The translations under genes and the position numbers were made by a program. From assembly GCF_900113065.1 (NCBI RefSeq), contig NZ_FOOA01000007.1, forward strand, positions 62,001 through 126,000: 64,000 bases of DNA. Direction: 5' to 3'. Source of the DNA: Aureimonas phyllosphaerae (GTDB lineage Bacteria > Pseudomonadota > Alphaproteobacteria > Rhizobiales > Rhizobiaceae). Positions within the stretch are counted from its first letter, which is position 1; the number at the start of each line of letters is the position of its first letter. This document shows, one piece after another, positions 1 to 12,936 of the stretch. The notes under the pieces were generated by a model. It was not told the DNA's origin, ran no database searches, and saw only the letters and a program-made list of their open reading frames with translations.

Positions 1-2543
1 CCGCCCACAGCCCTCCTGATGTCGTTGGCCCCGACGCCGAAACAAGAGCAGACGAGCGCGCCGGGGTCGGGCCGCTCGGTGCCGGCGCGTCCGGCAAGGA
101 TGCGGGCGCGGGCCTGGGGCTCGAAGGCCGGAGCGTCGAGCAGCGAGACGGCGAAGGCGCGCGAGACGGCGACGGGCTCCGGCGAGAGCCAGAGCGCGGC
201 GAGGAGCCGGCCGTCGGCATCGAAGGCGGCGAGGCGGCGCTGGCCGGTGCGGTCGGTGTAGTCGAGGAGGTCTGCGGCGGGGTCGAGGCTGAGGAGGGCG
301 TGGGGGTTCGGCGCGGTGCCGTTGCCGGCGAGCTCCAGCCGCCAGCCGCCGGAGGCGCGGGCCTTCGCCCAGTAGAGAGGATCGCCGGCCTCCGGCTCGG
401 CGCGTGAGACCGCGAAGCCGTACCACTCGGCCGAAACGCGACGGAGCGCGGCGGGCGCGGCCTTCGACGCCGGCTGGCCCGAGATCGGATCGGTGCGCGC
501 GGGAACGAGCGCGTTGACGCGGGCCGCGCCCGAGAACTGGCCGGTCCAGTGCATGGGGGCGAAGAGCGTGCCGGGCGCGACGCGGGGCGTCAGGAGCGCG
601 CGCAGGGTGGCGCCGCCGTGATCCGTCGAGAGCGACACGAGATCGGCCTCCGCGATGCCGAGGCGTTCCGCGTCGGCCGGGTGGATCTCGCAGAAGGGCT
701 CGGCGAGATGGGCCGACAGGCGGGGCGAACGGCCGGTTCGCGTCATCGTGTGCCACTGGTCGCGGATGCGGCCGGTGTTGAGCACGAACGGACGCTCGGC
801 CGTGAGGGCGGGCGCTTCGGCGGGGGCGACGGCCAGGAGCTTCGCCCGGCCGCTCGGCGTGAAGAAGCGGCCGTCGGCGAAAAAGCGGGTGGTCGGCGCG
901 GCGCCGGCCGGCATCGGCCATTGCACCGGCGCCAGCGCCTCGTAGGCCGCATCGTCGAGCGTCTTGAGCGCGCCGATATCGAAATCGCGCGTGCCCTCGT
1001 TCTCGAAGGCGGACAGCGCGGCATGCTCGCGGAAGATCGCGGCGGCGTTGGCGAAGTCGAAGCCCTTTGCGAAACCCATGCGCTTCGCGATTTCCTGGAT
1101 CTGCCACCAGTCCGGCCGCGCGTCTCCGGGCAGGGCGAGGTAGCCGCGCTGGCGCGAGATGCGGCGCTCCGAATTCGTGACCGTCCCGTCCTTCTCCCCC
1201 CAGGCGGCGGACGGCAGGGCGACATGGGCGAAAGGCATCGTGTCGGTGTCGGTCACGACGTCGGAGACGACGACGAAGGGGCAGCGGCGGAGCGCCTCAG
1301 CGACGCCGTCGGCTTGGGGAAGCGAATCGACGGGATTGGTCCCCATGATCCACAGCGCGCGCACCCGGCCGTCGGCGACCGCCTGGAAGAGGTCCACGGC
1401 CTTGAGGCCGGGCGTCTGCGCCACGCTCGGCGCATTCCAGAAGCGGCGCACGACGTCCGCATGGGCGAGATTGCCGAGGTCCATATGGGCGGCGAGCTGG
1501 TTGGCGAGCCCGCCGACCTCGCGCCCGCCCATCGCATTGGGCTGGCCGGTCACGGAGAAGGGACCGGTCCCGGATTTCCCGATGCGGCCGGTGGCGAGAT
1601 GGCAGTTGAGAATGGCCGATACCTTGTCGGTGCCGCCCGCCGACTGGTTCACGCCCTGGCTGTAGACGGTGACGGTCTTGTCCGTGTGGGCATAGAGGTC
1701 GAGGAAGGCCGCGAGCTTGTCCGTGTCGAGCCCGGTCGCTTCCGCAAGACGATCGAGGTCGGCGAAAGGACGCGCGGCCTCCAGCGCGGCGTCGAGGCCT
1801 TCCGTGTGCGCTTGCGTGTAGGCGCGGTCGATCGCGCCCGCCGCCTCGATCGCGGCGAGAGCCCCGAGAAACAGCGCCGTGTCGCCGTCGGCGCGGATCG
1901 GCAGATGCAGGTCGGCTTCCCGCGCGCTCGCCGTCTCGCGTGGATCGATGACGACGAGGCGCATCTGCGGGCGTCGCGCCCGCGCCGCCTGGACGCGCTG
2001 GAACAGCACCGGATGGCACCAGGCGAGGTTGGAGCCGACAAGCACCAGGAGGTCGGCCTCCTCCAGGTCCTCGTAGGTGCCGGGCACGGTGTCGGAGCCG
2101 AACGTGCGCTTGTGGCCGGCGACGGAAGAGGCCATGCACAGGCGCGAATTGGTGTCGATATTGGCCGAGCCGACGAAGCCCTTCATCAGCTTGTTGGCGA
2201 CGTAGTAGTCTTCGGTCAGGATCTGACCGGAGACATAAAGCGCCACCGAATCCGGCCCGTGGTCGCGGATCGTCTCGGCAAACCGGGCGGCCACCGTGTC
2301 GAGCGCCGCATCCCAGGAAGCGCGCTCGCCCCCGATCTGCGGATGCAGCAGCCGGCGGTCGGGAACCAGCGTCTCGGCAAGCGCCGAGCCCTTGGAGCAG
2401 AGGCGGCCGAAATTGGCGGGGTGCGTCTCATCGCCCGCGATCGCGACCGTGCCGTCGGGGCGGGGCGTCGCGACGACCCCGCAGCCGACGCCGCAATAGG
2501 GGCAGGTGGTGCGGGTTGCGCCCGGGGTCGCCAGCGTGTTCAT
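1..2543 (-). CDS. nasA: Assimilatory nitrate reductase, large catalytic subunit (3' end outside window)
   Basis: Reduces nitrate to nitrite in the cytoplasm using a bis-MGD molybdenum cofactor. About 847 residues are visible. The N-terminus carries the 4Fe-4S ligands C14-x2-C17-x3-C21 and C49 in 'GRLCSKG'. Molybdopterin-oxidoreductase signatures follow, such as 'NQSAGGTDK' and 'GQPNAMGGREVGGLANQ', then the C-terminal MGD-binding domain. The last visible residues (A-L-V-C-S-C-F-G-V-G) begin a BFD-type 2Fe-2S domain, common in NasA proteins that lack a separate electron-transfer subunit. There is no Tat signal, so the assimilatory (Nas) rather than the periplasmic (Nap) type is indicated. The ATG at 2543 lies one base after the cynS stop, so this is the distal gene of the nirBD-cynS run. 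The stop codon is not in the window. Confidence 0.95.
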   Translation of the reverse strand, partial: MNTLATPGATRTTCPYCGVGCGVVATPRPDGTVAIAGDETHPANFGRLCSKGSALAETLVPDRRLLHPQIGGERASWDAALDTVAARFAETIRDHGPDSVALYVSGQILTEDYYVANKLMKGFVGSANIDTNSRLCMASSVAGHKRTFGSDTVPGTYEDLEEADLLVLVGSNLAWCHPVLFQRVQAARARRPQMRLVVIDPRETASAREADLHLPIRADGDTALFLGALAAIEAAGAIDRAYTQAHTEGLDAALEAARPFADLDRLAEATGLDTDKLAAFLDLYAHTDKTVTVYSQGVNQSAGGTDKVSAILNCHLATGRIGKSGTGPFSVTGQPNAMGGREVGGLANQLAAHMDLGNLAHADVVRRFWNAPSVAQTPGLKAVDLFQAVADGRVRALWIMGTNPVDSLPQADGVAEALRRCPFVVVSDVVTDTDTMPFAHVALPSAAWGEKDGTVTNSERRISRQRGYLALPGDARPDWWQIQEIAKRMGFAKGFDFANAAAIFREHAALSAFENEGTRDFDIGALKTLDDAAYEALAPVQWPMPAGAAPTTRFFADGRFFTPSGRAKLLAVAPAEAPALTAERPFVLNTGRIRDQWHTMTRTGRSPRLSAHLAEPFCEIHPADAERLGIAEADLVSLSTDHGGATLRALLTPRVAPGTLFAPMHWTGQFSGAARVNALVPARTDPISGQPASKAAPAALRRVSAEWYGFAVSRAEPEAGDPLYWAKARASGGWRLELAGNGTAPNPHALLSLDPAADLLDYTDRTGQRRLAAFDADGRLLAALWLSPEPVAVSRAFAVSLLDAPAFEPQARARILAGRAGTERPDPGALVCSCFGVGANDIRRAVG

Positions 2544-2544
2544 C

Positions 2545-2988
2545 TCACCACGCGTTGTAGGCGAGGTACTTGCCGCTCATGCGCACCTCGATCCGGTCGC
2601 CCTTGGGGTTCGGCACCTTCTCGACCTCCATGTGGAAGTCGATCGCGCTCATGATGCCGTTGCCGCACTTCTCCTGGACGAGCTCCTTCAGCGTGTCGCC
2701 GTAGACGCCGACGATCTCGTAGAAGCGGTAGATGCAGGGATCGGTCGGAACGCTGCGGTCCCAGACCTTGGTCGGGTACTCGGCCAGCGTGACGGCCGCC
2801 TCCTGCGGCAGGCCGAGATTGGTGACGAGGAGGTCGGCCTTGTCGCGCGGCAGGGCGTTCATGCCGAGGCAGGCGGAGGTCGTGAAGACCTCGCTCATGC
2901 CGATGCCCTCCGCGATCGAGGCCCAGGACAGGCCCGCCTGGCGCTTGCGCTCGTAGACGAGGTCGGTGACGTCCTTCTTCGACAGCAT
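2545..2988 (-). CDS. cynS: Cyanate hydratase (cyanase)
   Basis: Catalyses the bicarbonate-dependent decomposition of cyanate to ammonia and CO2. The 147 residues match the family length (about 150-156). The N-terminal half is the helical DNA-binding-like fold. The C-terminal half holds the catalytic triad: R88 and E91 in 'YRFYEIVGVYG' and S114 in 'GIMSAIDFHM', equivalent to E. coli Arg96, Glu99 and Ser122. An AGGAG ribosome site lies just before the ATG, overlapping the nirD stop (AATAGGAG). The gene is packed between nirD (10-base gap) and nasA (1-base gap), so it is co-transcribed with nitrate assimilation. This suggests cyanate is used as a nitrogen source under the same control. Confidence 0.97.
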   Translation of the reverse strand: MLSKKDVTDLVYERKRQAGLSWASIAEGIGMSEVFTTSACLGMNALPRDKADLLVTNLGLPQEAAVTLAEYPTKVWDRSVPTDPCIYRFYEIVGVYGDTLKELVQEKCGNGIMSAIDFHMEVEKVPNPKGDRIEVRMSGKYLAYNAW

Positions 2989-2998
2989 GGTGCGTCTC

Positions 2999-3349
2999 CT
3001 ATTCCGCGGCTTCTTGAAAGGCTTCGGCTTCCAGCAGGATTTCCAGCGCCCCGTCCGCGCCGACGCGAACGGGAAAAGTGCGCACCCGGCCCTCGTCCGG
3101 CCCCTGCACCAGCCCGGTGTCGAGGGCGATCACCTGGGAGTGGAGCGGGCAGGTGACGGAGCCGCCGTGGACGATGCCCTGGCTCAGCGGGCCGCCCTTG
3201 TGGGGGCAGCGGTCCTCGGTCGCGAAGACCTTGTCATCCATCGTACGGAACACGGCGATCCGGCCGAGCGGCGAGGTCACGCAGCGCGCGCCGCGCCGGG
3301 GGATGTCGTCGAGGCGGCCGATCGCCGCCCATGCGCCCTGCATCGTCAT
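2999..3349 (-). CDS. nirD: Nitrite reductase (NADH) small subunit, Rieske type
   Basis: Small subunit partner of NirB in assimilatory nitrite reduction to ammonium; 116 residues. A full set of Rieske 2Fe-2S ligands is visible: C48-x-H50 ('RCPHKGG') and C67-x2-H70 ('CPLHSQ'). The E. coli NirD family has the Rieske fold without the cluster, so this copy is of the cluster-binding kind. The start at 3349 gives an ATGA overlap with the nirB stop, indicating translational coupling. A second ATG two codons downstream is the only close alternative. Confidence 0.93.
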   Translation of the reverse strand: MTMQGAWAAIGRLDDIPRRGARCVTSPLGRIAVFRTMDDKVFATEDRCPHKGGPLSQGIVHGGSVTCPLHSQVIALDTGLVQGPDEGRVRTFPVRVGADGALEILLEAEAFQEAAE

Positions 3350-5808
3350 TCCGCAGCCTCCCGGAAACCGATCTCCGCCATGGGTTTGAACTCGTGCGAG
3401 GCGACGCCCTTCGAGGCGCGCTCGGCCCAGGGGTCGACCTGCGCGAACTGCTGGGAGAACACGAAGCGCTCGAAATAGGCCTGGCGCTTCTCGAGGTCGT
3501 CGACGACCGCCGCGCGGATCGAGTCCATGCCGACGCGCTTCAGCCACTTGTAGATGCGCTCGAGATAGTGGCCCTGCTCGCGGTAGAGCTGGGTGAGGGC
3601 GGCGATCACCACCACCGCCTCGTCCTCGGTGACGACATGGCAGAGGACCTGCGTGCCGTGGATGTCGAGGCCGGCGGCGCCGGCGAAGTGGATGTCGTAG
3701 CCCGAATCCACGCAGATGACGCCGATGTCCTTGCACGTCGCCTCGGCGCAGTTCCGGGGGCAGCCGGAGACGGCCATCTTGAGCTTGGCCGGGGTCCAGG
3801 AGCCCCACATGAACTTCTCCAGCCGGATGCCGAGGCCGGTGGAATCCTGCGTGCCGAAGCGGCACCAGTCGGTTCCGACGCAGGTCTTCACCGTGCGCAA
3901 CCCCTTGGCATAGGCCGCGCCCGAGACCATGCCGGCGGCGTTGAGGTCGGCCCAGACGGCGGGAAGGTCCTCCTTCTTCACGCCCAGCATGTCGATGCGC
4001 TGGCCGCCGGTGCACTTGACGGCCGGGATGGCGAACTTGTCCACGACGTCGGCGATGGCGCGCAGCTCGGCTGACGAGGTCATGCCGCCCCACATGCGCG
4101 GCACGACGGAATAGGTGCCGTCCTTCTGGATGTTGGCGTGGACCCGCTCGTTGATGAAGCGGCTCTGCTTGTCGTCCTGGTACTCGCCCGGCCAGTCGGC
4201 GAGGAGATAGTAGTTGAGCGCCGGGCGGCACTTGGCGCAGCCGCAGGAGGTCGTCCATTCCAGCTCCTGCATCACGGCCGGGATCGACTTCAGTTCCTTG
4301 GCCTTGATGAGCCGGCGCACGTCGCCGTGGCCGAGCGTGGTGCAGCCGCACATCGGCTTGACGGCTTGCGCGTTGAACTTGTCGCCGAGCGTCACGCTCA
4401 TCAGCTGCTCGACGAGGCCGGTGCAGGAGCCGCAGGAGGCCGAGGCCTTGGTGTGGGCGCGCACGTCGTCGAAGGTCGTCAGGCCCTTGGCGGTGATGGT
4501 GGACGTGATCTTGCCCTTGCAGACGCCGTTGCAGCCGCAGATCTCGGCGTCATCGCCCAAGGCTGCAACGGCCGCCATAGGGTCCAGCGGGGACCCTCCC
4601 TGGTAGCTCTGGCCGAAGATCAGCGTGTCGCGCATCTCCCCGATGTCGGTGCCCTTCTTCAGAAGGTCGCCGAACCAGCCCCCATCCGCCGTCTCGCCGT
4701 AGAGCACGGCGCCGAGGATCCTGTTGTCCTTGACGACGAGGCGCTTGTAGACGCCGGCCGAGGCGTCGCGCAGCACGATCTCCTCGCGGTCGGGCGCATC
4801 GGCGAAGTCGCCGACGGAGTAGAGGTTGATGCCCGTGACCTTCAGTTTGGTCGGCGTGTCGGAGTGGCGGAAGCCTTCGCCCGGCTGGCCCGCGAGGCGG
4901 CGGGCCGCCACTTCCGCCATCTGGTAGAGCGGGGCGACGAGGCCGTAGACGCGCCCGTCGAGTTCGACGCACTCGCCGAGCGCGGAAATGCTCTCGTCCG
5001 AGGTCAGAAGCTGGTCGTCCACATGGATGCCGCGCCCGACGGCCAAGCCCGCCTCCTTCGCGAGACCCGCCGAGGGGCGGATGCCGACGGCCATGACGAC
5101 GAGGCTCGCGGGGATGACGCGCCCGTCCTTGAGCTTCACGCCCTCGACCTTTTCGGTCCCGAGGATTTCTTCCGTGTTGGCGTTGCAGATCACCTCGATA
5201 CCGCGCTTCTCCAGGGCGCGCTGGAGGAGGAAGCCGGCGGCGGGGTCGAGCTGGCGCTCCATCAGCGTCGGCATGAGATGGAGGACCGTGACCTCCAATC
5301 CTTGCGCGCGCAGGCCCGCGGCGGCTTCGAGGCCGAGGAGGCCACCGCCGATGACGACGGCCTTGGCTTTGGACTGTGCCGCCAGGATCATCGCGTCGAC
5401 ATCGTCGAGGTCGCGATAGGCGAGGACGCCGGGTAGGGTGTGGCCGGGCACCGGCGGGATGAAGGGCGTCGAGCCGGTGGCGATGACCAGGTGGTCGTAA
5501 GGCGCGGTCACACCCTTGTCCGACGTCACGGTCTTTGCCGCGCGGTCGATCGCGACGACGCGATGGCCCTTGTGGAGCGTGACGCCGTGGCTGACGTACC
5601 AGCCGTCGCCGTGGATCACGATGTCCTCGAAGCTCTTCTCGCCCGACAGGACGGGGGAGAGCATGATGCGATCGTAGTTCACGCGGGGTTCGGCGTTGAA
5701 GATCGTCACCTCGAAGGCATTCGGCGCCAGTTCGAAGAGGTGTTCGAGCATCCGGCCGGGGGCCATGCCGTTGCCGACGACGACGAGTTTCTGGGTCATG
5801 GGTCTCAT
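3346..5808 (-). CDS. nirB: Nitrite reductase (NADH) large subunit
   Basis: Cytoplasmic siroheme enzyme that reduces nitrite to ammonium with six electrons from NAD(P)H; 820 residues, normal for NirB. Domains in order: FAD/NAD-binding oxidoreductase (residues about 5-300, 'VVVGNGMAPGRMLEHL' and 'VVIGGGLLGLEAA'); two BFD-type 2Fe-2S segments ('CGCNGVCKGKI...CGSC' and 'CGCTTLGHGDVR...CGCAKC'); then the nitrite/sulfite reductase ferredoxin half-domain and siroheme/4Fe-4S domain. The last two carry the cysteine pairs C-x5-C ('TCVGTDWCRFG') and C-x3-C ('GCPRNCAEA'). The ATG at 5799 (fourth codon) is an equally plausible start; neither has a strong ribosome site. No siroheme synthase gene is nearby. 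About 70 bases separate it from nrtD upstream. Confidence 0.96.
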   Translation of the reverse strand: MRPMTQKLVVVGNGMAPGRMLEHLFELAPNAFEVTIFNAEPRVNYDRIMLSPVLSGEKSFEDIVIHGDGWYVSHGVTLHKGHRVVAIDRAAKTVTSDKGVTAPYDHLVIATGSTPFIPPVPGHTLPGVLAYRDLDDVDAMILAAQSKAKAVVIGGGLLGLEAAAGLRAQGLEVTVLHLMPTLMERQLDPAAGFLLQRALEKRGIEVICNANTEEILGTEKVEGVKLKDGRVIPASLVVMAVGIRPSAGLAKEAGLAVGRGIHVDDQLLTSDESISALGECVELDGRVYGLVAPLYQMAEVAARRLAGQPGEGFRHSDTPTKLKVTGINLYSVGDFADAPDREEIVLRDASAGVYKRLVVKDNRILGAVLYGETADGGWFGDLLKKGTDIGEMRDTLIFGQSYQGGSPLDPMAAVAALGDDAEICGCNGVCKGKITSTITAKGLTTFDDVRAHTKASASCGSCTGLVEQLMSVTLGDKFNAQAVKPMCGCTTLGHGDVRRLIKAKELKSIPAVMQELEWTTSCGCAKCRPALNYYLLADWPGEYQDDKQSRFINERVHANIQKDGTYSVVPRMWGGMTSSAELRAIADVVDKFAIPAVKCTGGQRIDMLGVKKEDLPAVWADLNAAGMVSGAAYAKGLRTVKTCVGTDWCRFGTQDSTGLGIRLEKFMWGSWTPAKLKMAVSGCPRNCAEATCKDIGVICVDSGYDIHFAGAAGLDIHGTQVLCHVVTEDEAVVVIAALTQLYREQGHYLERIYKWLKRVGMDSIRAAVVDDLEKRQAYFERFVFSQQFAQVDPWAERASKGVASHEFKPMAEIGFREAAE

Positions 5809-5877: not shown

Positions 5878-6678
5878 TCAGGCCGCTTCGACGAAGCGGT
5901 TGCGCTCGTAGAGGAACCGCAACACCGCCTGGCGGCACTTGAGGTAGATCGGGTCCGTCGCGAGCTTGATGCGGTCGCGCGGCCGGGCGAGCGGCACGGC
6001 GAGGATCTCGCCGATGTTGGCCGATGGGCCGTTCGTCAGCATCACGATGCGATCCGACAGGAGCACGGCCTCGTCCACGTCGTGGGTGATCATCATCACC
6101 GTGGTGCCGAGGTCAGCCTGGATCTGCATGACCTGATCCTGCAGATGCGCGCGGGTGAGCGCGTCGAGCGCGCCGAAGGGCTCGTCGAGGAGGAGGATCT
6201 TCGGCTCCATGGCGAGTGCGCGAGCGATGCCGACGCGCTGCTTCATGCCGCCCGAAATCTCCGACGGACGCTTGTCCCGGGCGTGGCCCATATGGACGAG
6301 CTCGAGGTTGCGCATCACCCATTCGCGGCGCTCAGGTGCCGACTTGGCCTTGCCGAACACCTTGTCCACCGCGAGCGCGACGTTCTCGTAGACCGTGAGC
6401 CAGGGCAGGAGCGAATGGTTCTGGAACACGACGCCCCGGTCGGGGCCCGGCTGGTCCACGACCTTGTCCTCGAGGAGGACGACGCCGGTCGTGGCCTTCG
6501 TCAGGCCCGCCACGATGTTGAGAAGCGTGGACTTGCCGCAGCCGGAATGGCCGATGATCGAGATGTACTCGCCCTTGTCCACCGTCAGGTCGATGCCCTT
6601 GAGGACCTGGGTGGTGGCGGCGCCCCGCTTGAAGGTCATGTCGACGCCTTCGATCGACAGGAACGGCTTGGCTTGCAT
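5878..6678 (-). CDS. nrtD: Nitrate/nitrite ABC transporter, ATP-binding protein
   Basis: ATPase of the NrtABD nitrate/nitrite importer; 266 residues. Walker A is 'GHSGCGKST', the ABC signature 'SGGMKQRVGIARAL', Walker B 'ILLLDEPFGALD', and the H-loop 'MMITHDVDEA'. This pattern is typical of the NrtD/SsuB/TauB group. It ends after the ATPase domain, with no NrtC-type solute-sensing fusion. It starts 29 bases after the nrtB stop and is part of the same transcript. The same transporter family also carries cyanate (CynABD), which matters here because cynS is in the operon. Confidence 0.93.
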   Translation of the reverse strand: MQAKPFLSIEGVDMTFKRGAATTQVLKGIDLTVDKGEYISIIGHSGCGKSTLLNIVAGLTKATTGVVLLEDKVVDQPGPDRGVVFQNHSLLPWLTVYENVALAVDKVFGKAKSAPERREWVMRNLELVHMGHARDKRPSEISGGMKQRVGIARALAMEPKILLLDEPFGALDALTRAHLQDQVMQIQADLGTTVMMITHDVDEAVLLSDRIVMLTNGPSANIGEILAVPLARPRDRIKLATDPIYLKCRQAVLRFLYERNRFVEAA

Positions 6679-6707
6679 GGGTTCGCTCCGGGTCTGTCGA
6701 GGAGAGA

Positions 6708-7607
6708 TCAGGCCGCGGCCGTGCCGCGGGTGACGAGACGGCCGACCAGCGCCACGATCCGGTCGAGCACGAAGCCGACGAGGCCGACATAGGCGAGGGC
6801 GACGATGATGTCGGAGATCAGCGACGAGTTCCAAGCGTCCCAGATGAAGAAGCCGATCCCGACGCCGCCGATCAGCATCTCGGCCGCGACGATCGCCAGC
6901 CACGACAGGCCGACGCCGATGCGAAGTCCGGTGAAGATGTAGGGGGCGGCGGCCGGCAGCATGATTTTGGCGAAGAACTCGAGGCCGTTCAGGCGCAGCA
7001 CCGCCGCCACGTTGCGATAGTCGGCCGGAATGTTGCGCACGCCGACGGCCGTGTTGATGATGATCGGCCAGACCGAGGTGATGAAGATCACGAAGATCGC
7101 GGCCGGCTGGCCGTTCTGGAAGGCGGCGAGCGAGAGCGGCAGCCAGGCGAGCGGCGGCACCGTGCGCAGCACCTGGAAGATGGGATCGAGGCCGCGCATG
7201 GCGAGCGTCGACTGGCCGACGAGCACGCCGAGCGAGATGCCGACGGCGACCGCGATCGAATAGCCGATCGCGACGCGCTGGAGGCTCGCCCAGATCTGCC
7301 ATCCGAGGCCGACGTCGTTGCCCGAATTGACGTAGAACGGATGGGCGATCAGCTCCCAGCTATCGCTGAGCACCTGGCTCGGCGCCGGAAGCGCGGCGCC
7401 GGGATGGGCGCACAGGAGCTCCCACAGACCGAGAAGCACCGTGAGGGTGACGAGGAAGGGCAGGATTTCGGCCGCCCAGTCGCGCGAGCGCCGGACGAGA
7501 GCGGGGCCGACGGGCGCACGGCGCGTCGGCAGCGCGAGGACGGCGGCGCCGGCCTTGGCCGCGGGCGCCGGGCCCTTCAGGGGCAGCTTGGTGACGGTCT
7601 GGGACAC
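6708..7607 (-). CDS. nrtB: Nitrate/nitrite ABC transporter, permease
   Basis: Inner-membrane permease of the nitrate/nitrite importer; 299 residues with about six hydrophobic segments. The first follows a 45-residue cytoplasmic N-terminus rich in Ala and Pro. The cytoplasmic EAA-type loop that contacts the ATPase is visible around 'NVAAVLRLNGLEFFAKIMLP'. Length and the 'PPLAWLPLSLAAF' segment fit NrtB/NasE/SsuC permeases. It lies between nrtA (39-base gap) and nrtD (29-base gap). Confidence 0.93.
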   Translation of the reverse strand: MSQTVTKLPLKGPAPAAKAGAAVLALPTRRAPVGPALVRRSRDWAAEILPFLVTLTVLLGLWELLCAHPGAALPAPSQVLSDSWELIAHPFYVNSGNDVGLGWQIWASLQRVAIGYSIAVAVGISLGVLVGQSTLAMRGLDPIFQVLRTVPPLAWLPLSLAAFQNGQPAAIFVIFITSVWPIIINTAVGVRNIPADYRNVAAVLRLNGLEFFAKIMLPAAAPYIFTGLRIGVGLSWLAIVAAEMLIGGVGIGFFIWDAWNSSLISDIIVALAYVGLVGFVLDRIVALVGRLVTRGTAAA

Positions 7608-7646: not shown

Positions 7647-8957
7647 TCAGGCGATGCGCTTGATCGACAGGCTCGCGAGGTAGGCGTCGGGATTGGCGGG
7701 ATCGAAGGTCTTGCCGTCGAAGAAGGTCTCGACGCCGCGCGAGGTCGAGGCCGGGATGTCGGCCGCTGAGACGCCGAGGTCCTTGGCCGCGGCGCGCCAG
7801 ATATCCTCCCGGTTGACCGCCGCGATCAGCGCCGCCTTGTCGAGCCCGGCGGGCAGGTAGCCCCAGCGCTGGTCCTCGGTGAGGAACCAGAGGTCGTGGC
7901 TCTGGAAGGGGTAGGAGGCGTGGTCGCGCCAGAACTTCATGACGTGGGGCGAGTTCTCGACCACCGGCTTGCCGTTGCCGTAGTCGTAGGTGCCCTTGAG
8001 GCGGTCGACGATATCGGCGGGGGCGACGTTGAACCAGGCGCGCTTGCCGACGATCTGGCTGAGCTCGTCCTTGTTCTCCATCGCGTCGCACCACTGCTGC
8101 GCCTCGAGGACCGCCATGGTCAGCGCCTTGGCGGCGTTGGGGTGAGCCGCGACCCAGTCGGCGCGCATCGCGAAGCTCTTCTCGGGATGCCTGGCCCAGA
8201 GCTCGCCCGTCGTGATGGCGCTGTAGCCGACGTCCTGGTTCACCATCTGCTCGTGCCACGGCTCGCCGACGCAGAAGGCGTCCATCGTGTTGACCTTGAG
8301 GTTCGCCACCATCTGCGGCGGCGGCACGACGATGGTCTCGACGTCGGAATTCGGATCGATGCCGGCGGCGGCCAGCCAGTAGCGCATCCACAGGTCGTGC
8401 GTGCCGCCGGGGAAGGTGACGGCGACCTTCGACACGGTGCCGGCCGCCTTCTTGGCCGCGAACGCGTCGCGCAGGACACCGGCGTCGAGGCCGACATTCT
8501 CCTTGCGCAGGCCGGTCGCGACCGAGATGCCCTGGCCGTCGAGGTTGAGACGGGCGAGGATCTGCATCGGCAGCGGCGCGCCTTGCGTGATCGTCCCGGC
8601 GCTCATCAGGTAGGGCATGGGGGTGAGGATGTGGGCGCCGTCGATGCCCGATCCCGCCGAGCCGAGCACGAGGTTGTCGCGCGTCGTGCCCCAGGACGAC
8701 TGCTTCACCACCTCGACATCGGGCATGCCGTGTTTGGCGAAGAGGCCCTTTTCCTTGGCGATGATGAGCGGTGAGGCGTCGGTCAGGGCGATGAAGCCGA
8801 GGACGGCTTTGGTGGTCTCGGGGCCCGCGCCTTGCGCAAACGCGCCGCCTGGGAAGCTCGCCGAGATCGCCGAGACGAGCGCGGCGGTGCCCGCGGTCGC
8901 GGCGGTGCCGAGAAGGAAGCGGCGACGGTTGAGGCCGGAATTGTCGGAAGCGGGCAT
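7647..8957 (-). CDS. nrtA: Nitrate/nitrite ABC transporter, substrate-binding protein
   Basis: Periplasmic nitrate/nitrite-binding protein of the NrtA/CmpA family; 436 residues. The N-terminus has a twin-arginine signal ('LNRRRFLLGTAATAG') followed by a hydrophobic stretch and an A-x-A-like cleavage site near 'GGAFAQG'. The mature part contains the family hallmarks 'GFIALTDASPLIIAKEKGLF' and 'FCVGEPWHEQMV'. I start at the ATG at 8957 because GAGGACCGCC precedes it; a TTG ten codons upstream (8987) also extends the frame. It is the first structural gene of the operon and sits directly behind the hairpin/terminator leader. Confidence 0.94.
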   Translation of the reverse strand: MPASDNSGLNRRRFLLGTAATAGTAALVSAISASFPGGAFAQGAGPETTKAVLGFIALTDASPLIIAKEKGLFAKHGMPDVEVVKQSSWGTTRDNLVLGSAGSGIDGAHILTPMPYLMSAGTITQGAPLPMQILARLNLDGQGISVATGLRKENVGLDAGVLRDAFAAKKAAGTVSKVAVTFPGGTHDLWMRYWLAAAGIDPNSDVETIVVPPPQMVANLKVNTMDAFCVGEPWHEQMVNQDVGYSAITTGELWARHPEKSFAMRADWVAAHPNAAKALTMAVLEAQQWCDAMENKDELSQIVGKRAWFNVAPADIVDRLKGTYDYGNGKPVVENSPHVMKFWRDHASYPFQSHDLWFLTEDQRWGYLPAGLDKAALIAAVNREDIWRAAAKDLGVSAADIPASTSRGVETFFDGKTFDPANPDAYLASLSIKRIA

Positions 8958-8985
8958 GGCGGTCCTCGGCGGGTGAGGGAAGGCC

Positions 8986-9031
8986 AAACGAAAACGACGC
9001 CGCGGACCACATGCCCCGTCCGCGCCTCGTC
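8986..9031 (-). terminator. Intrinsic terminator in the nrtA leader (attenuator)
   Basis: On the minus strand the arms CGCGGAC (9024-9018) and GTCCGCG (9007-9001) enclose a 10-base loop. Outside them GACG (9031-9028) pairs with CGTC (8999-8996). The T-rich run GTTTTCGTTT (8995-8986) follows at once. The terminator is only about 30 bases before the nrtA start codon and has no upstream gene to end, so it most likely acts as an attenuator of the nitrate operon. Confidence 0.75.
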
Positions 9032-9056
9032 CGGCGTGGGTTGGGTGGCATCGGGT

Positions 9057-9120
9057 TCGCGACGTCGATGTCGTCGAGGCTTGGGAGAAGCTCGGTGACC
9101 CTGTCGTCCTTGACGGGTCA
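9057..9120 (-). promoter_or_regulatory. Tandem hexaloop hairpins, probable ANTAR (NasT) antitermination target
   Basis: Two hairpins read on the minus strand. Hairpin 1 (9120-9096): TGACCC-GTC closes on GAC-(bulged A)-GGGTCA with hexaloop AAGGAC (9111-9106). Hairpin 2 (9077-9057): TCG-(bulged A)-CGAC closes on GTCG-CGA with hexaloop ATCGAC (9069-9064). Both loops have A at position 1 and G at position 4, the known ANTAR-target rule. They are 18 bases apart, and an intrinsic terminator follows before nrtA. nasT, encoding an ANTAR protein, lies 1.4 kb upstream. Expected behaviour: with nitrate present, NasT is released from NasS, binds the hairpins and prevents termination. A weak possible promoter (TTGCAA at 9155-9150, 17 bases, TGGATA at 9132-9127) would start transcription at about hairpin 1. 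The rest of 9121-9303 holds no gene that I can see. Confidence 0.78.
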
Positions 9121-9303
9121 TGGTGCTATCCAACCGCAGAAGCGTCATTTTGCAAAGCACAAATGTACGCCAGATAAGCACGCCTAGAAATTCAGCATAA
9201 TGGTTCCAGATTGCGGCGCCGCAGGCGTTTGATGGTGCTTTGGCCTCGCGCGTGTTCTTCGGTCACGACGCGCAAATGTTGGGCATCGATCCTCGAGCGC
9301 TCG

Positions 9304-10503
9304 TCAGTCGCTGGCTGGTGACGCGCCGGGGGGCGCCGCAGGGATCTTCGCGAGCGCCGCCTCGATCGCATCCGGATCGAAGTCCGGGCCGGCATCGGGC
9401 GAGCGTTCGATACGACTGTCGGGCAGCGCCTCGGCGCGTCCGGGCAGGGCCGAGCGGTAGACGTCGGGCCGGAACGCCTGCGCGGCCTGGCGCGCCGCGT
9501 CCGGCGAGTAGGTCGCCTGTCCCCAGCGCACCATCTGCGCGAAGACCCAGAGCGCCTGCGAGCGGCGCGGCAGGTTGGCGCCCTCCGGCCGGAAGTCGAC
9601 ATAGGCGGCGAGCGCCCGGCGGGTGCCGTCCGGGTCCACCGGCAGGTCGCCGCCCAGCACCGTCTCGAACAGGGCGGCGCGGCCGCCGACATGGGCGGGC
9701 TCGGCGAGGATCGCGGCCAGTTCCCGCCGGTTGGCGGGCTCGGCGCACCAGAGGGCGCTGGCGTCGAGCGCCGCGAGCAGACGCTCGGCCGTGTCGCGCT
9801 GGTCCTGCCACCAGTCCGGCCGAAGGCCCAGCACCTTTTCCGGCGAGCCGGGCCAGATGTCGGCCTTCACCGCCACGATGCGCCCGATCCCCTCTTCCAC
9901 GGCCATCACGTTCCACGGCGCGTTGACGCAGAACCCGTCGATCAGCCCGGCGCGCAGGGCATCGGCGGTCATCGGCGGCGGCACCACCGTCAGCGTCACG
10001 TCGCGGTCGGGATCGATCCCCGCCGACGCCAGCCAGAGCCGGAACTCGTAGGCGTGCGAGGAGAAGGGATAGGTCACGCCGAACACCGGGACGGCTTCGC
10101 CCACCCGGCGTCGTCGCTCCAGCGCCCGCTTCAGCGCCCGCGCATGGGCGCCGGCCACGTCGGGGTAGTCCTCGCCGTCCATCGCCGCGCGCATGGCGGC
10201 CATCAGCGGCGTCGAGAGCGTGATGGCGTTGCCGCCCTCGGCGAGCGCGAAGGGGGCGATGACCTTGTGCGGGTTGGAGCCGAGGCCGAGCTCGCCCGCG
10301 ACCGCCATGGGGCCGAGCATGTGGGCGACGTCGAACTGGCGGAAGGCGAGGCGATCGCGGATGTTCGACCACGATACGTCGCGCGTCAGCTCGATCCGCA
10401 CGCCCTCGCGCCGGTCGAGGCCCAGCGCCGAGGCCGCCACGAGCACCGCGGCGTCGAGAAGCGGGATGAAGCCCGCGCGCACGATCCGTTCGGGAGCGCT
10501 CAT
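9304..10503 (-). CDS. nasS: Nitrate/nitrite sensor NasS (NrtA-like, cytoplasmic)
   Basis: A 399-residue protein of the NrtA/CmpA binding fold but with no signal peptide: it begins 'MSAPERIVRAGFIPLLDAA'. It shares with NrtA the segments 'DVTLTVVPPPM', 'FCVNAPWNVMAVEEGI' and 'GLRPDWWQDQRD'. Cytoplasmic NrtA homologues next to an ANTAR gene are NasS sensors, which hold NasT inactive until nitrate or nitrite binds. The ATG at 10503 is preceded by GGGGAGGATTGAGG and lies 2 bases after the nasT stop, so the two are co-translated in near-fixed ratio. The TTG at 10509 is a weaker alternative start. Confidence 0.9.
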   Translation of the reverse strand: MSAPERIVRAGFIPLLDAAVLVAASALGLDRREGVRIELTRDVSWSNIRDRLAFRQFDVAHMLGPMAVAGELGLGSNPHKVIAPFALAEGGNAITLSTPLMAAMRAAMDGEDYPDVAGAHARALKRALERRRRVGEAVPVFGVTYPFSSHAYEFRLWLASAGIDPDRDVTLTVVPPPMTADALRAGLIDGFCVNAPWNVMAVEEGIGRIVAVKADIWPGSPEKVLGLRPDWWQDQRDTAERLLAALDASALWCAEPANRRELAAILAEPAHVGGRAALFETVLGGDLPVDPDGTRRALAAYVDFRPEGANLPRRSQALWVFAQMVRWGQATYSPDAARQAAQAFRPDVYRSALPGRAEALPDSRIERSPDAGPDFDPDAIEAALAKIPAAPPGASPASD

Positions 10504-10505
10504 CC

Positions 10506-11105
10506 TCAATCCTCCCCGCCGAGAAGGCTGGCGGCCGTCACCAGCGAGCGGGCGATGTCCACGAGCTTCTTCTTCTCGTTCATGGCGGTCTGGCGCATCA
10601 GGCGATACGCCTCCTCTTCCGACAGGCCCCGCATCCGCATGAGAAGCCCCTTGGCGCGCTCCACCACCTTGCGGTCGGCGAGCTCCGAACGCGCGTTCTG
10701 CAACTCGCGCTCCAGCCGCGAGTAGGCCTCGAAGCGCAGGACGGCCGTGTCGAGGATCGGCTTCACGCGCTCCTTCTTCAGCCCGTCCACGACATAGGCC
10801 GAAACGCCGGCGGCGATCGCGGCCTCCATCGAATCGGCGTCCGAGCGGTCGACGAACATGGCGATCGGACGGCGCACCGAGCGCGAGACCTGGAAGAAGG
10901 CCTCCAGCCGGTCGCGGTTGGGATTTTCGAGATCGACCACGATCACGTCGGGCCGGAACGCCTCGATCTCGCGCACCAGCCCTTGCGCGTCCGCGACGAT
11001 GTGGACGCGCTCGTGGCCGGCCTCGCGCAGGCCCTCTTCGATGATCGCGGCCCGCGCCCGGTTCTCGTCGACAATCAGGACGGCAAGGGCGGGGCGGGGT
11101 TCCAT
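10506..11105 (-). CDS. nasT: ANTAR-domain antiterminator NasT
   Basis: A 199-residue response-regulator-like protein. The N-terminal receiver fold covers residues about 7-120 ('ALAVLIVDENRARAAIIEEGL'; D58 in 'DVIVVDLENPN' is the position of the usual phosphoacceptor). A coiled linker ('YSRLERELQNARSELADRKVVERAKGLLM' in part) leads to the C-terminal ANTAR RNA-binding domain, about 136-196, with 'AKGLLMRMRGLSEEEAYRLMR'. In studied systems NasT is controlled by NasS binding rather than by phosphorylation. The start at 11105 gives the family N-terminus; the open frame continues upstream without typical sequence. Confidence 0.92.
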   Translation of the reverse strand: MEPRPALAVLIVDENRARAAIIEEGLREAGHERVHIVADAQGLVREIEAFRPDVIVVDLENPNRDRLEAFFQVSRSVRRPIAMFVDRSDADSMEAAIAAGVSAYVVDGLKKERVKPILDTAVLRFEAYSRLERELQNARSELADRKVVERAKGLLMRMRGLSEEEAYRLMRQTAMNEKKKLVDIARSLVTAASLLGGED

Positions 11106-11676: not shown

Positions 11677-12936
11677 TCAGGCGAAGCGGCGGGCCGCGTC
11701 GAGGCCGAGACCGAGGCCGACCGAACCGAAGGCGTCCGACAAGGCGACGCGTGCCTCCGGGAAGCGCGCCGTCGCCGCCCTCGCCACGGCCGGCACCTGC
11801 GCGCCGCCGCCGGTCAGGATCACCGTCTCGATCGCCTCCGGCCCGATGCCGGCAAGCTGGAGCGAGGCAGCGATCGCGCCGTCGATCCGTTCCACGAGCT
11901 CGGCCGTCGCCGCCTCGAACTCGGCGCGCGTGACGGGAGCCTCCAGCGTCAGCCCCGATTCGCGAAGGCTGATCGTCGCCTCCTCCTCGTGGGTGAGAGC
12001 GATCTTCGCCCGCTCCACGGCCCCGGCCAGCCGGTGGCCGGAGCGGTGCGCCAGCATGTGCTCCATGCGCTTCAGCTTTTCCGGCTCGGCGGCTTCCTTG
12101 GCGAGCGAGCGGATGTCGGCCAGCACCTTGGGCGTATAGAGCGTGTTGATACGGTGCCAGGTCGCGAAATCGTTGAAGTACCAGACCGGCAGCGTCCGCT
12201 TGCCGTCGGCCGTGGTCGAGCCGAGCCCGAGCAGCGGCTGCATGCGGGCGATGTTCAGGAGGCGGTCGAAATCCGTGCCGCCGACATGGACGCCCGTGGT
12301 GCCGAGGATGTCGTCGGCGCGGTCGGGACGCCGGGCGCGCTCGGGGCCGAGGCGCAGGATCGAAAAGTCCGACGTGCCGCCGCCGATATCGACGACGAGC
12401 GCCACCTGCTCGGCGTTCATGCCGCTCTCGAAGTAGAGGGCGGCAGCAACCGGCTCGTACTGGAACTCGACATGGGCGAAGCCTTGCGCCCGCGCGGCCG
12501 AGGCGAGCTGGTCCTCGGCTTCCTGGTCGGCCGCGTCGCTTTCGTCGACGAAGCGCACGGGCCGGCCGAGCACGATGCGGTCGACCGGCGCGTCGCTCTC
12601 GCGCTCCAGCGTCTTGCGCAGGTGCTCGAGGAAGGTGCCGATCAGCGCCTCGAAGCTCATGCGCTGGCGACCGACCTGCGTCGTCTCCTTCATCAGCGAC
12701 GAGCCGAGGATGCTTTTCAGCGCGCGCATGAAGCGGCCTTCCGCACCGTCGACATATTCGAAGACGGCGCGTCGGCCGAAGTAGGTCTGGCCGTCCTCCA
12801 GCGAGAAGAACAGGGCCGAGGGGATCGTCAGGTGGTCGCCCTCGACGGGCAGGAGCCGCGGCGCGCCGCCGGGGGCGCAAAGCGACAGGGTCGAGTTCGT
12901 GGTGCCGAAGTCGAGGCCGGCGAAGGAGGCGGACAT
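11677..12936 (-). CDS. Hsp70 family protein, short YegD-like form
   Basis: A 419-residue actin-fold ATPase related to the Hsp70/YegD group. The phosphate 1 motif is 'GLDFGTTNSTLSL', the phosphate 2 motif 'ALVVDIGGGTSDFSIL', and the adenosine motif 'TVILTGGGAQVPAV'. It ends soon after the nucleotide-binding domain and has no substrate-binding domain or lid, so it is not DnaK. YegD-like proteins are of unclear function and are often called chaperone-like. A GTG at 12969 could add 11 residues. The neighbours (GlcG-type gene downstream, glycosyltransferase upstream) give no functional clue. Confidence 0.85.
   Translation of the reverse strand: MSASFAGLDFGTTNSTLSLCAPGGAPRLLPVEGDHLTIPSALFFSLEDGQTYFGRRAVFEYVDGAEGRFMRALKSILGSSLMKETTQVGRQRMSFEALIGTFLEHLRKTLERESDAPVDRIVLGRPVRFVDESDAADQEAEDQLASAARAQGFAHVEFQYEPVAAALYFESGMNAEQVALVVDIGGGTSDFSILRLGPERARRPDRADDILGTTGVHVGGTDFDRLLNIARMQPLLGLGSTTADGKRTLPVWYFNDFATWHRINTLYTPKVLADIRSLAKEAAEPEKLKRMEHMLAHRSGHRLAGAVERAKIALTHEEEATISLRESGLTLEAPVTRAEFEAATAELVERIDGAIAASLQLAGIGPEAIETVILTGGGAQVPAVARAATARFPEARVALSDAFGSVGLGLGLDAARRFA

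Follow-up and report, generated by a model that had tools for sequence, protein, structure and literature searches.

A probable NasT-type transcription attenuator, with a conserved third helix between its two predicted target hairpins, ahead of the nitrate operon of Aureimonas phyllosphaerae

The leader of the nitrate operon in the 64,000-nucleotide stretch of the Aureimonas phyllosphaerae genome analyzed here (the window; NZ_FOOA01000007.1, positions 62,001 to 126,000) had been described in a first-pass annotation as a complete attenuator of the ANTAR antitermination type, which raises the question of whether the leader is such an element and how it is built. In all likelihood the leader is a genuine NasT-type attenuator of an ordinary kind, equipped with a conserved third helix. 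On comparative sequence evidence we hold with high confidence that a NasST-controlled attenuator of the ANTAR kind heads an nrtABC-nirBD-cynS-nasA operon, with the third helix (PL) probably spacing the loops that would be read. The proposed antitermination is well supported by the loops, the covariation of the first hairpin (P1), the overlap of the second (P2) with the terminator, the nasT-nasS genes, and the presence of the element in relatives, where it precedes nrtA, nirB, or narK-type genes.

The attenuator spans 9120 to 8986 on the minus strand, ahead of nrtA (Table 1). The nrtA product has a sole NCBIfam match, TIGR01728, below its cut-off; an alternative start (TTG at 8987) falls at the U-tract. 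The molybdopterin reductase at the far end of the operon has Fdh-alpha (446.5 bits) and NasC (395.5 bits) as its best NCBIfam matches, both below cut-off, and we infer from the context that it is a nitrate reductase. A cyanase gene lies inside the operon, and cyanate may be a further substrate of NrtABC. The nasS-nasT pair had been placed next to the leader, and these genes do lie directly upstream of it and of the operon: NasS is 32% identical to NrtA and is encoded adjoining nasT, and the receiver and ANTAR domains of NasT both score over their cut-offs.

Table 1. Leader features and neighboring genes, in window coordinates
Feature	Position	Strand	Basis or remark
Molybdopterin reductase, nasA/nasC-like	3..2543	-	NCBIfam; runs off the window
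cynS, cyanase	2545..2988	-	TIGR00673 and NF002773, over cut-off
nirD	2999..3400	-	TIGR02378, 94.9 bits, over cut-off; 5' end approximate
nirB	3346..5808	-	TIGR02374, 886 bits, over cut-off
nrtC, ATP-binding protein	5878..6750	-	TIGR01184, 346.5 bits, over cut-off; 5' end approximate
nrtB, permease	6708..7607	-	TIGR01183, 313.6 bits, over cut-off
nrtA, nitrate ABC transporter binding protein	7647..8957	-	Named from nrtBC neighbors; ATG at 8957
U-tract GTTTTCGTTT	8995-8986	-	After terminator; 7 U in 10
Local GC hairpin of the first-pass annotation	9024-9001	-	Folding; core CGCGGAC/GTCCGCG
Conserved terminator hairpin	9066-8996	-	5' arm 9066-9058 pairs with 9004-8996
P2, second NasT-target hairpin (predicted)	9073-9060	-	Folding; 4 pairs
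PL, hairpin filling the P1-P2 linker	9094-9075	-	Folding; homologues covary
P1, first NasT-target hairpin (predicted)	9120-9096	-	Folding; 9 pairs
-10-like GGATAG	9126..9131	-	Upstream regions side by side
Imperfect dyad CATTTGTGCTTTGCAAAATG	9146..9165	-	Candidate activator site
nasS, nitrate sensor	9304..10509	-	PF13379, 231.6 bits; overlaps nasT end
nasT, REC + ANTAR antiterminator	10506..11105	-	PF03861, 69.3 bits; PF00072, 42.1 bits; start is the MEPRP methionine

Sequence and folding agree with the earlier description of two tandem hairpins with hexaloops AAGGAC (9111-9106) and ATCGAC (9069-9064), both with A1 and G4. ANTAR targets as described by Ramesh et al. (2012) consist of two hairpins of at least three pairs with such hexaloops and an intrinsic terminator overlapping the second; the leader has all of these, with an imperfect U-tract. 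The first-pass annotation did not mention PL (CGAGCTT-CTCCC-AAGCCTCG), a third hairpin of seven pairs with a bulged C, whose loop is not an A1/G4 hexaloop.

By the mechanism that we propose, transcription would start near the base of P1. When nitrate is absent, NasS would hold NasT. The RNA would then form P1 and PL together with the terminator, which takes its 5' arm from the 3' side of P2, and transcription would stop at about 8994-8986. Nitrate would free NasT, and a NasT dimer would bind the A1/G4 loops in P1 and P2 and keep P2 folded, in which state the terminator could not form. PL would fold most of the linker away and leave the two loops about as close together as they are in the short-linker targets of other bacteria.

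Antitermination of this general type is known from several systems. In Paracoccus denitrificans, too, nasTS immediately precedes the nitrate operon; there, NasT binds the nasA leader RNA and nitrate dissociates NasS from NasT (PMC3795266). Hairpin HI of that leader is required for induction, and the accessible text of the two reports describes hairpins HI and HII and no linker helix (PMC3795266, PMC5424462), whereas comparative analysis distinguishes P1, PL, P2, and the overlapping terminator in the present leader, and the operon here is headed by nrtABC. The eut leaders of Enterococcus faecalis, read by EutV, share the two A1/G4 hexaloop hairpins and the overlap of P2 with the terminator, an exclusion known for ANTAR targets (PMC3369931). 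EutV acts on phosphorylation, in contrast to Paracoccus NasT, which acts on release from NasS. The eut linkers measure 5 to 12 nt; a linker of 14 nt drastically cut induction in the cell, and 20 added nucleotides abolished antitermination in vitro (PMC3369931, PMC8934654), whereas the linker here has 22 nt (22 to 42 across leaders) and is folded into PL. The Klebsiella oxytoca nasF leader is also a nitrate-responsive ANTAR antitermination target with A1/G4 loops, but its NasR is a one-protein NIT-ANTAR sensor in place of NasS plus NasT. NasT hairpins and antitermination are described in Bradyrhizobium diazoefficiens as well, in leaders that control different genes, nosR and nirA (PMC6759348). 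We found no mention of a linker-internal hairpin in the accessible parts of the literature searched (PMC3369931, PMC8934654, PMC8164766, PMC3795266, PMC5424462, and PMC6759348, main texts, with subscription journals thinly represented), and within that literature the three-helix variant was not found described.

The earlier annotation had asked for covariation of both stems in homologous leaders. RNAalifold, run on a MAFFT alignment of 35 of the 36 mixed leaders (L005 was omitted as nearly identical to L004), recovered P2 but not P1 or PL, because the columns are shifted by P1 bulges and by the linkers. After that result a subset of 12 leaders with uniform layout was chosen by hand, all from other genera and none from Aureimonas, and built into a covariance model, R1. 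When 89 rows were aligned by R1, an alignment that is fitted to the model and leans toward it, both sides changed at 6 of 9 P1 pairs, 7 of 7 PL pairs, and 2 of 3 P2 pairs. The 237 cells with changes on both sides compare with 74 +- 8 after shuffling, a count that none of 500 shuffles reached, and the covariation score of 0.405 compares with 0.155 +- 0.008 when shuffled (0/500) and at most 0.084 when slid. This alignment (A3) began from 96 loci, of which 7, five of them from Aureimonas, fell below the threshold (E 0.001); loci repeating sites already included were left out, and the doubtful L161 and L164 were kept. In a MAFFT-only alignment of the 12 leaders, both-side changes occur at 4/9 P1 and 4/7 PL pairs. 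Covariation is thus borne out for P1, but P2 is nearly invariant across relatives. PL keeps its structure while its sequence changes; R1 aligned just three PL pairs in the window sequence.

The A1/G4 loop is kept in P1 in 87 and in P2 in 88 of the 89 rows, the exceptions being L161 and L164. All ten Aureimonas leaders keep both loops and the terminator arms, five of them keep the lower CG pairs of P2, and three (L007-L009) have a P1 mismatch beside the closing pair. A bulged A had been noted in both stems as a shared detail that might matter for recognition. Both bulges exist, but they sit on opposite arms (9102, on the 3' arm of P1; 9074, on the 5' side of P2) and are not conserved. The P1 bulge in the ten Aureimonas stems is A in four, C in two, T in one, and missing in three, and its position in the 89 rows is paired in 78, unpaired in 3, and a gap in 8. 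With the base absent or different in relatives, a role of the bulged A in recognition is not supported.

The linker of the window is 22 nt long with a four-pair P2 (23 nt if P2 counts three pairs), outside the eut range and inside the 2 to 25 nt allowed in a curated set of actinobacterial ANTAR targets (PMC8164766); PL leaves 2 to 3 nt of it outside. Across 35 leaders, the window included, linkers run from 22 to 42 nt (median, 30), and the linker ends outside their own fold from 1 to 16 nt (median, 8). Folded alone, the 35 linkers average z -2.3 relative to dinucleotide shuffles (Stouffer, -13.5, a value that ignores kinship), with p <= 0.05 in 24 and above 0.05 in 11. The window's own linker is marginal (z -2.0, p 0.053), and those of L006 and L007 gave no signal against shuffles. 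The P1 boundary of L010 was set by rule, P1 being absent from the fold used. Read most simply, PL takes up surplus linker by folding it, and in this genome and many relatives it seems to keep the two hairpins that would be read near each other.

We lean, by a little more than an even balance, toward the view that the ANTAR targets of rhizobia and related bacteria form a class of their own, made of three helices (P1-PL-P2). In this class PL would be obligatory though unread by NasT and would fix how far apart, and perhaps at what angle, the two loops are presented to a single NasT dimer. Such a class would explain how these leaders function although their linkers exceed the lengths that inactivate the EutV system, the only one for which the accessible literature yielded a test of the narrow-distance rule for ANTAR dimer hairpins. 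It is possible, though rather unlikely, that PL instead acts as a pause hairpin or plain insulator, delaying RNA polymerase so that NasT loads on P1 before P2 and the terminator emerge. The place of PL between the two NasT sites and the keeping of its structure under changing sequence would suit a delay of this kind; against it stand the short unpaired remainder and the short-linker leaders (among the matches listed, those of Methylobacterium, Ancylobacter, Chelatococcus, Zavarzinia, and others), whose linkers of 1 to 9 nt leave no room for a hairpin. The spacing between the receiver and ANTAR domains does not differ in length between 24 long-linker and 10 short-linker NasTs (one partial) in the alignment; of the top 80 of 589 matches, 41 yielded a NasT. 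Linker length varies several-fold in nature, yet what lies outside the linker's fold remains short and NasT keeps its domain spacing, so that the spacing question can be tested by PL swaps.

The first-pass annotation took the GC-rich hairpin and T run just before nrtA for the terminator. Both are present, but the local hairpin is not the conserved terminator, which is longer and reaches to 9066, into P2. The conserved hairpin has nine pairs (-43.9 kcal/mol; duplex, -18.3 kcal/mol), and its 5' arm comprises part of the P2 loop, the P2 3' arm, and two bases beyond. Since this arm is the 3' side of P2, P2 and the terminator are mutually exclusive. The computed leader fold reaches -67.8 kcal/mol in the terminator state and -54.0 kcal/mol with P1, PL, and P2 forced, a preference of 13.8 kcal/mol for the former. 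The duplex between the 3' side of P2 and the terminator is present in 36/36 long-linker leaders (-12.1 to -19.0); matching of these arms between clades was not counted as evidence, as the parser itself required it. With the P2 arm removed, the last 10 nt of the folded stretch, which reaches the first two bases of the U-tract, are fully unpaired in 26/36 leaders. Of the 10 nt that precede the U-tract, a local fold occupies 8 in the window and L004, 5 in L006 and L012, and 3 to 4 in six others; the count for L005, the second-closest relative, is 3.

Upstream of P1 there is no canonical sigma-70 match. A -10-like hexamer common to the Aureimonas leaders lies a few bases upstream of P1 and leads us to infer a transcription start near the P1 base, and all ten leaders carry a dyad, ACATTTG-N2-CTTT-(G/C)-CAAA, that is a possible activator site. 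Of 36 long-linker leaders, 23 have a sigma-54 type box, TGGCA(C/T)-N4-5-(T/C)TGC, whose distance to P1 is fixed, at -26 to -28 relative to an anchor nine bases before the P1 loop. With the consensus and start distance that we take to hold for such boxes, it would place the start at the P1 base. The box occurs in none of the ten Aureimonas leaders and is also missing in L033, L037, and L063; perhaps Aureimonas switched promoter type and kept the start position.

These features bear on whether the attenuator still works fully in this genome. The hairpin at 9024-9001 is able to form beside P2 and competes for the terminator 3' arm, and in the window and L004 it could terminate transcription even with P2 folded, which may make this copy leaky or partly NasT independent. 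The earlier description of the attenuator as complete calls for some qualification: the U-tract (GTTTTCGTTT) is interrupted here and is poorer still in L006 and L012. In its strong form, in which the element would be partly decayed, with the local hairpin a NasT-independent terminator or the poor U-tract barely terminating, nitrate control weak, and the promoter doing most of the work, we judge this reading unlikely: the 8 of 10 nt taken by the local fold, the state of the U-tract, and a promoter unlike that of the relatives point to it, whereas the loops and terminator arms kept in every Aureimonas leader, despite the P1 mismatch in three, and the 13.8 kcal/mol advantage of the terminator state speak against it.

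Two leaders among the best 80 of 589 matches, L185 (Azorhizobium doebereinerae) and L215 (a Xanthobacter MAG), have three tandem A1/G4 hexaloop hairpins before nrtA, the middle one close to P2. They would agree with a descent of PL from the middle member of an ancestral triple array whose loop lost recognition, a history that we consider improbable, as an A1/G4 hexaloop is found in 0/35 PL loops.

Hairpins with A1/G4 hexaloops and at least three pairs are common, numbering 413 on both strands of the window and forming 68 pairs at 16 to 66 nt. Only P2 at 9073-9060 passed filters for a locally folded P1 and for a T-rich tract behind, preceded by bases that pair with the P2 3' side at <= -12 kcal/mol; it did so in combination with P1 and, less strongly, in combination with an overlapping hairpin upstream. 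The covariance-model scan proposed for the site put it first in the window and in its own 4.7-Mb genome (27.6 bits, E 0.015). The next match in the genome (24.5 bits, E 0.07; 11961-12048) was rejected as chance, since it lies inside an HSP70-family gene and its P1 has no hexaloop. Rfam 15 gave no relevant family at the gathering threshold in the window and the loci of 12 relatives, or at E up to 10 in 8800-9400, and a simple terminator scan limited to loops of 3 to 8 found nothing in 8940-9320. That these are chance hairpins beside an ordinary terminator, with no NasT target, is hardly credible: the abundance of such hairpins and the lack of a matching Rfam family are outweighed by a combination unique in the window and ranked first in the genome, by covariation, and by conservation. 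R1 can serve as a working covariance model for NasT targets in rhizobia, for which no matching Rfam 15 family was found.

Aureimonas belongs to the NCBI family Aurantimonadaceae. NrtA matches, weaker NasS-like ones included, occur in 15/21 genomes of the genus, 93/151 of the family sample, and 139/249 of the order sample; the window NrtA is 93% identical to that of Aureimonas sp. SK2. The P2 pattern GACA..G..GTCGC together with P1 was found in 36 of 64 leaders, counted from 76 after dropping ten nasS-centered duplicates (L018-L027), L059 (partial nrtA), and L061 (contig end). R1 at E <= 0.1 matches 101 of 394 family-group genomes. Where the best match has E <= 1e-3, in 80 genomes, an ANTAR protein is present in 80/80, against 273/394 overall; among the 21 genomes with a weaker match, 6 lack one, about the background rate. 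Stricter R1 filters missed the A. phyllosphaerae genome itself (G000) and that of L004 (G011), though both carry the element. A few genomes, e.g., G463, G516, and G559, have two strong copies.

In 18 R1-matched loci that were checked, the element is followed by nrtA in 10, by nirB in 3 (L131, L138, and L144), and by a NarK-type transporter gene in 3 (L119, L132, and L146), the NirB and NarK names being the best NCBIfam matches of six genes that all score below whole-protein cut-offs, five of them cut by the locus end. The remaining two, L161 and L164, were set aside as chance matches with no nitrate gene or terminator behind. The 80 top-ranked of the 589 matches break down into 34 loci without a parse, 32 with a long linker, 11 with a short one, 2 with three hairpins, and 1 doubtful case (L206). 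Given the short-linker and unparsed leaders among these 80, the long-linker class is not universal in the order. Of the Bradyrhizobium nrtA leaders in the same set, 22/23 are unparsed and one is doubtful; their P1 seems mismatched near the loop, and their terminator differs.

The A. phyllosphaerae genome has two ANTAR-protein matches over cut-off, NasT and one at G000:C43. The latter lies beside a PF13433 AmiC-like protein of the periplasmic-binding type, at a locus (L246, 3830-9909, minus strand) that also holds permease-like genes and an acetamidase/formamidase gene (PF03069); a simple scan of this AmiC/AmiR-like locus gave no convincing dual hairpin. In the ANTAR helix of NasT, long-linker proteins read RQTAM where short-linker ones have RR or RS before xAM, a difference possibly linked to the P2 stems (GAC/GTC versus CNGC/GCTG) or reflecting kinship only.
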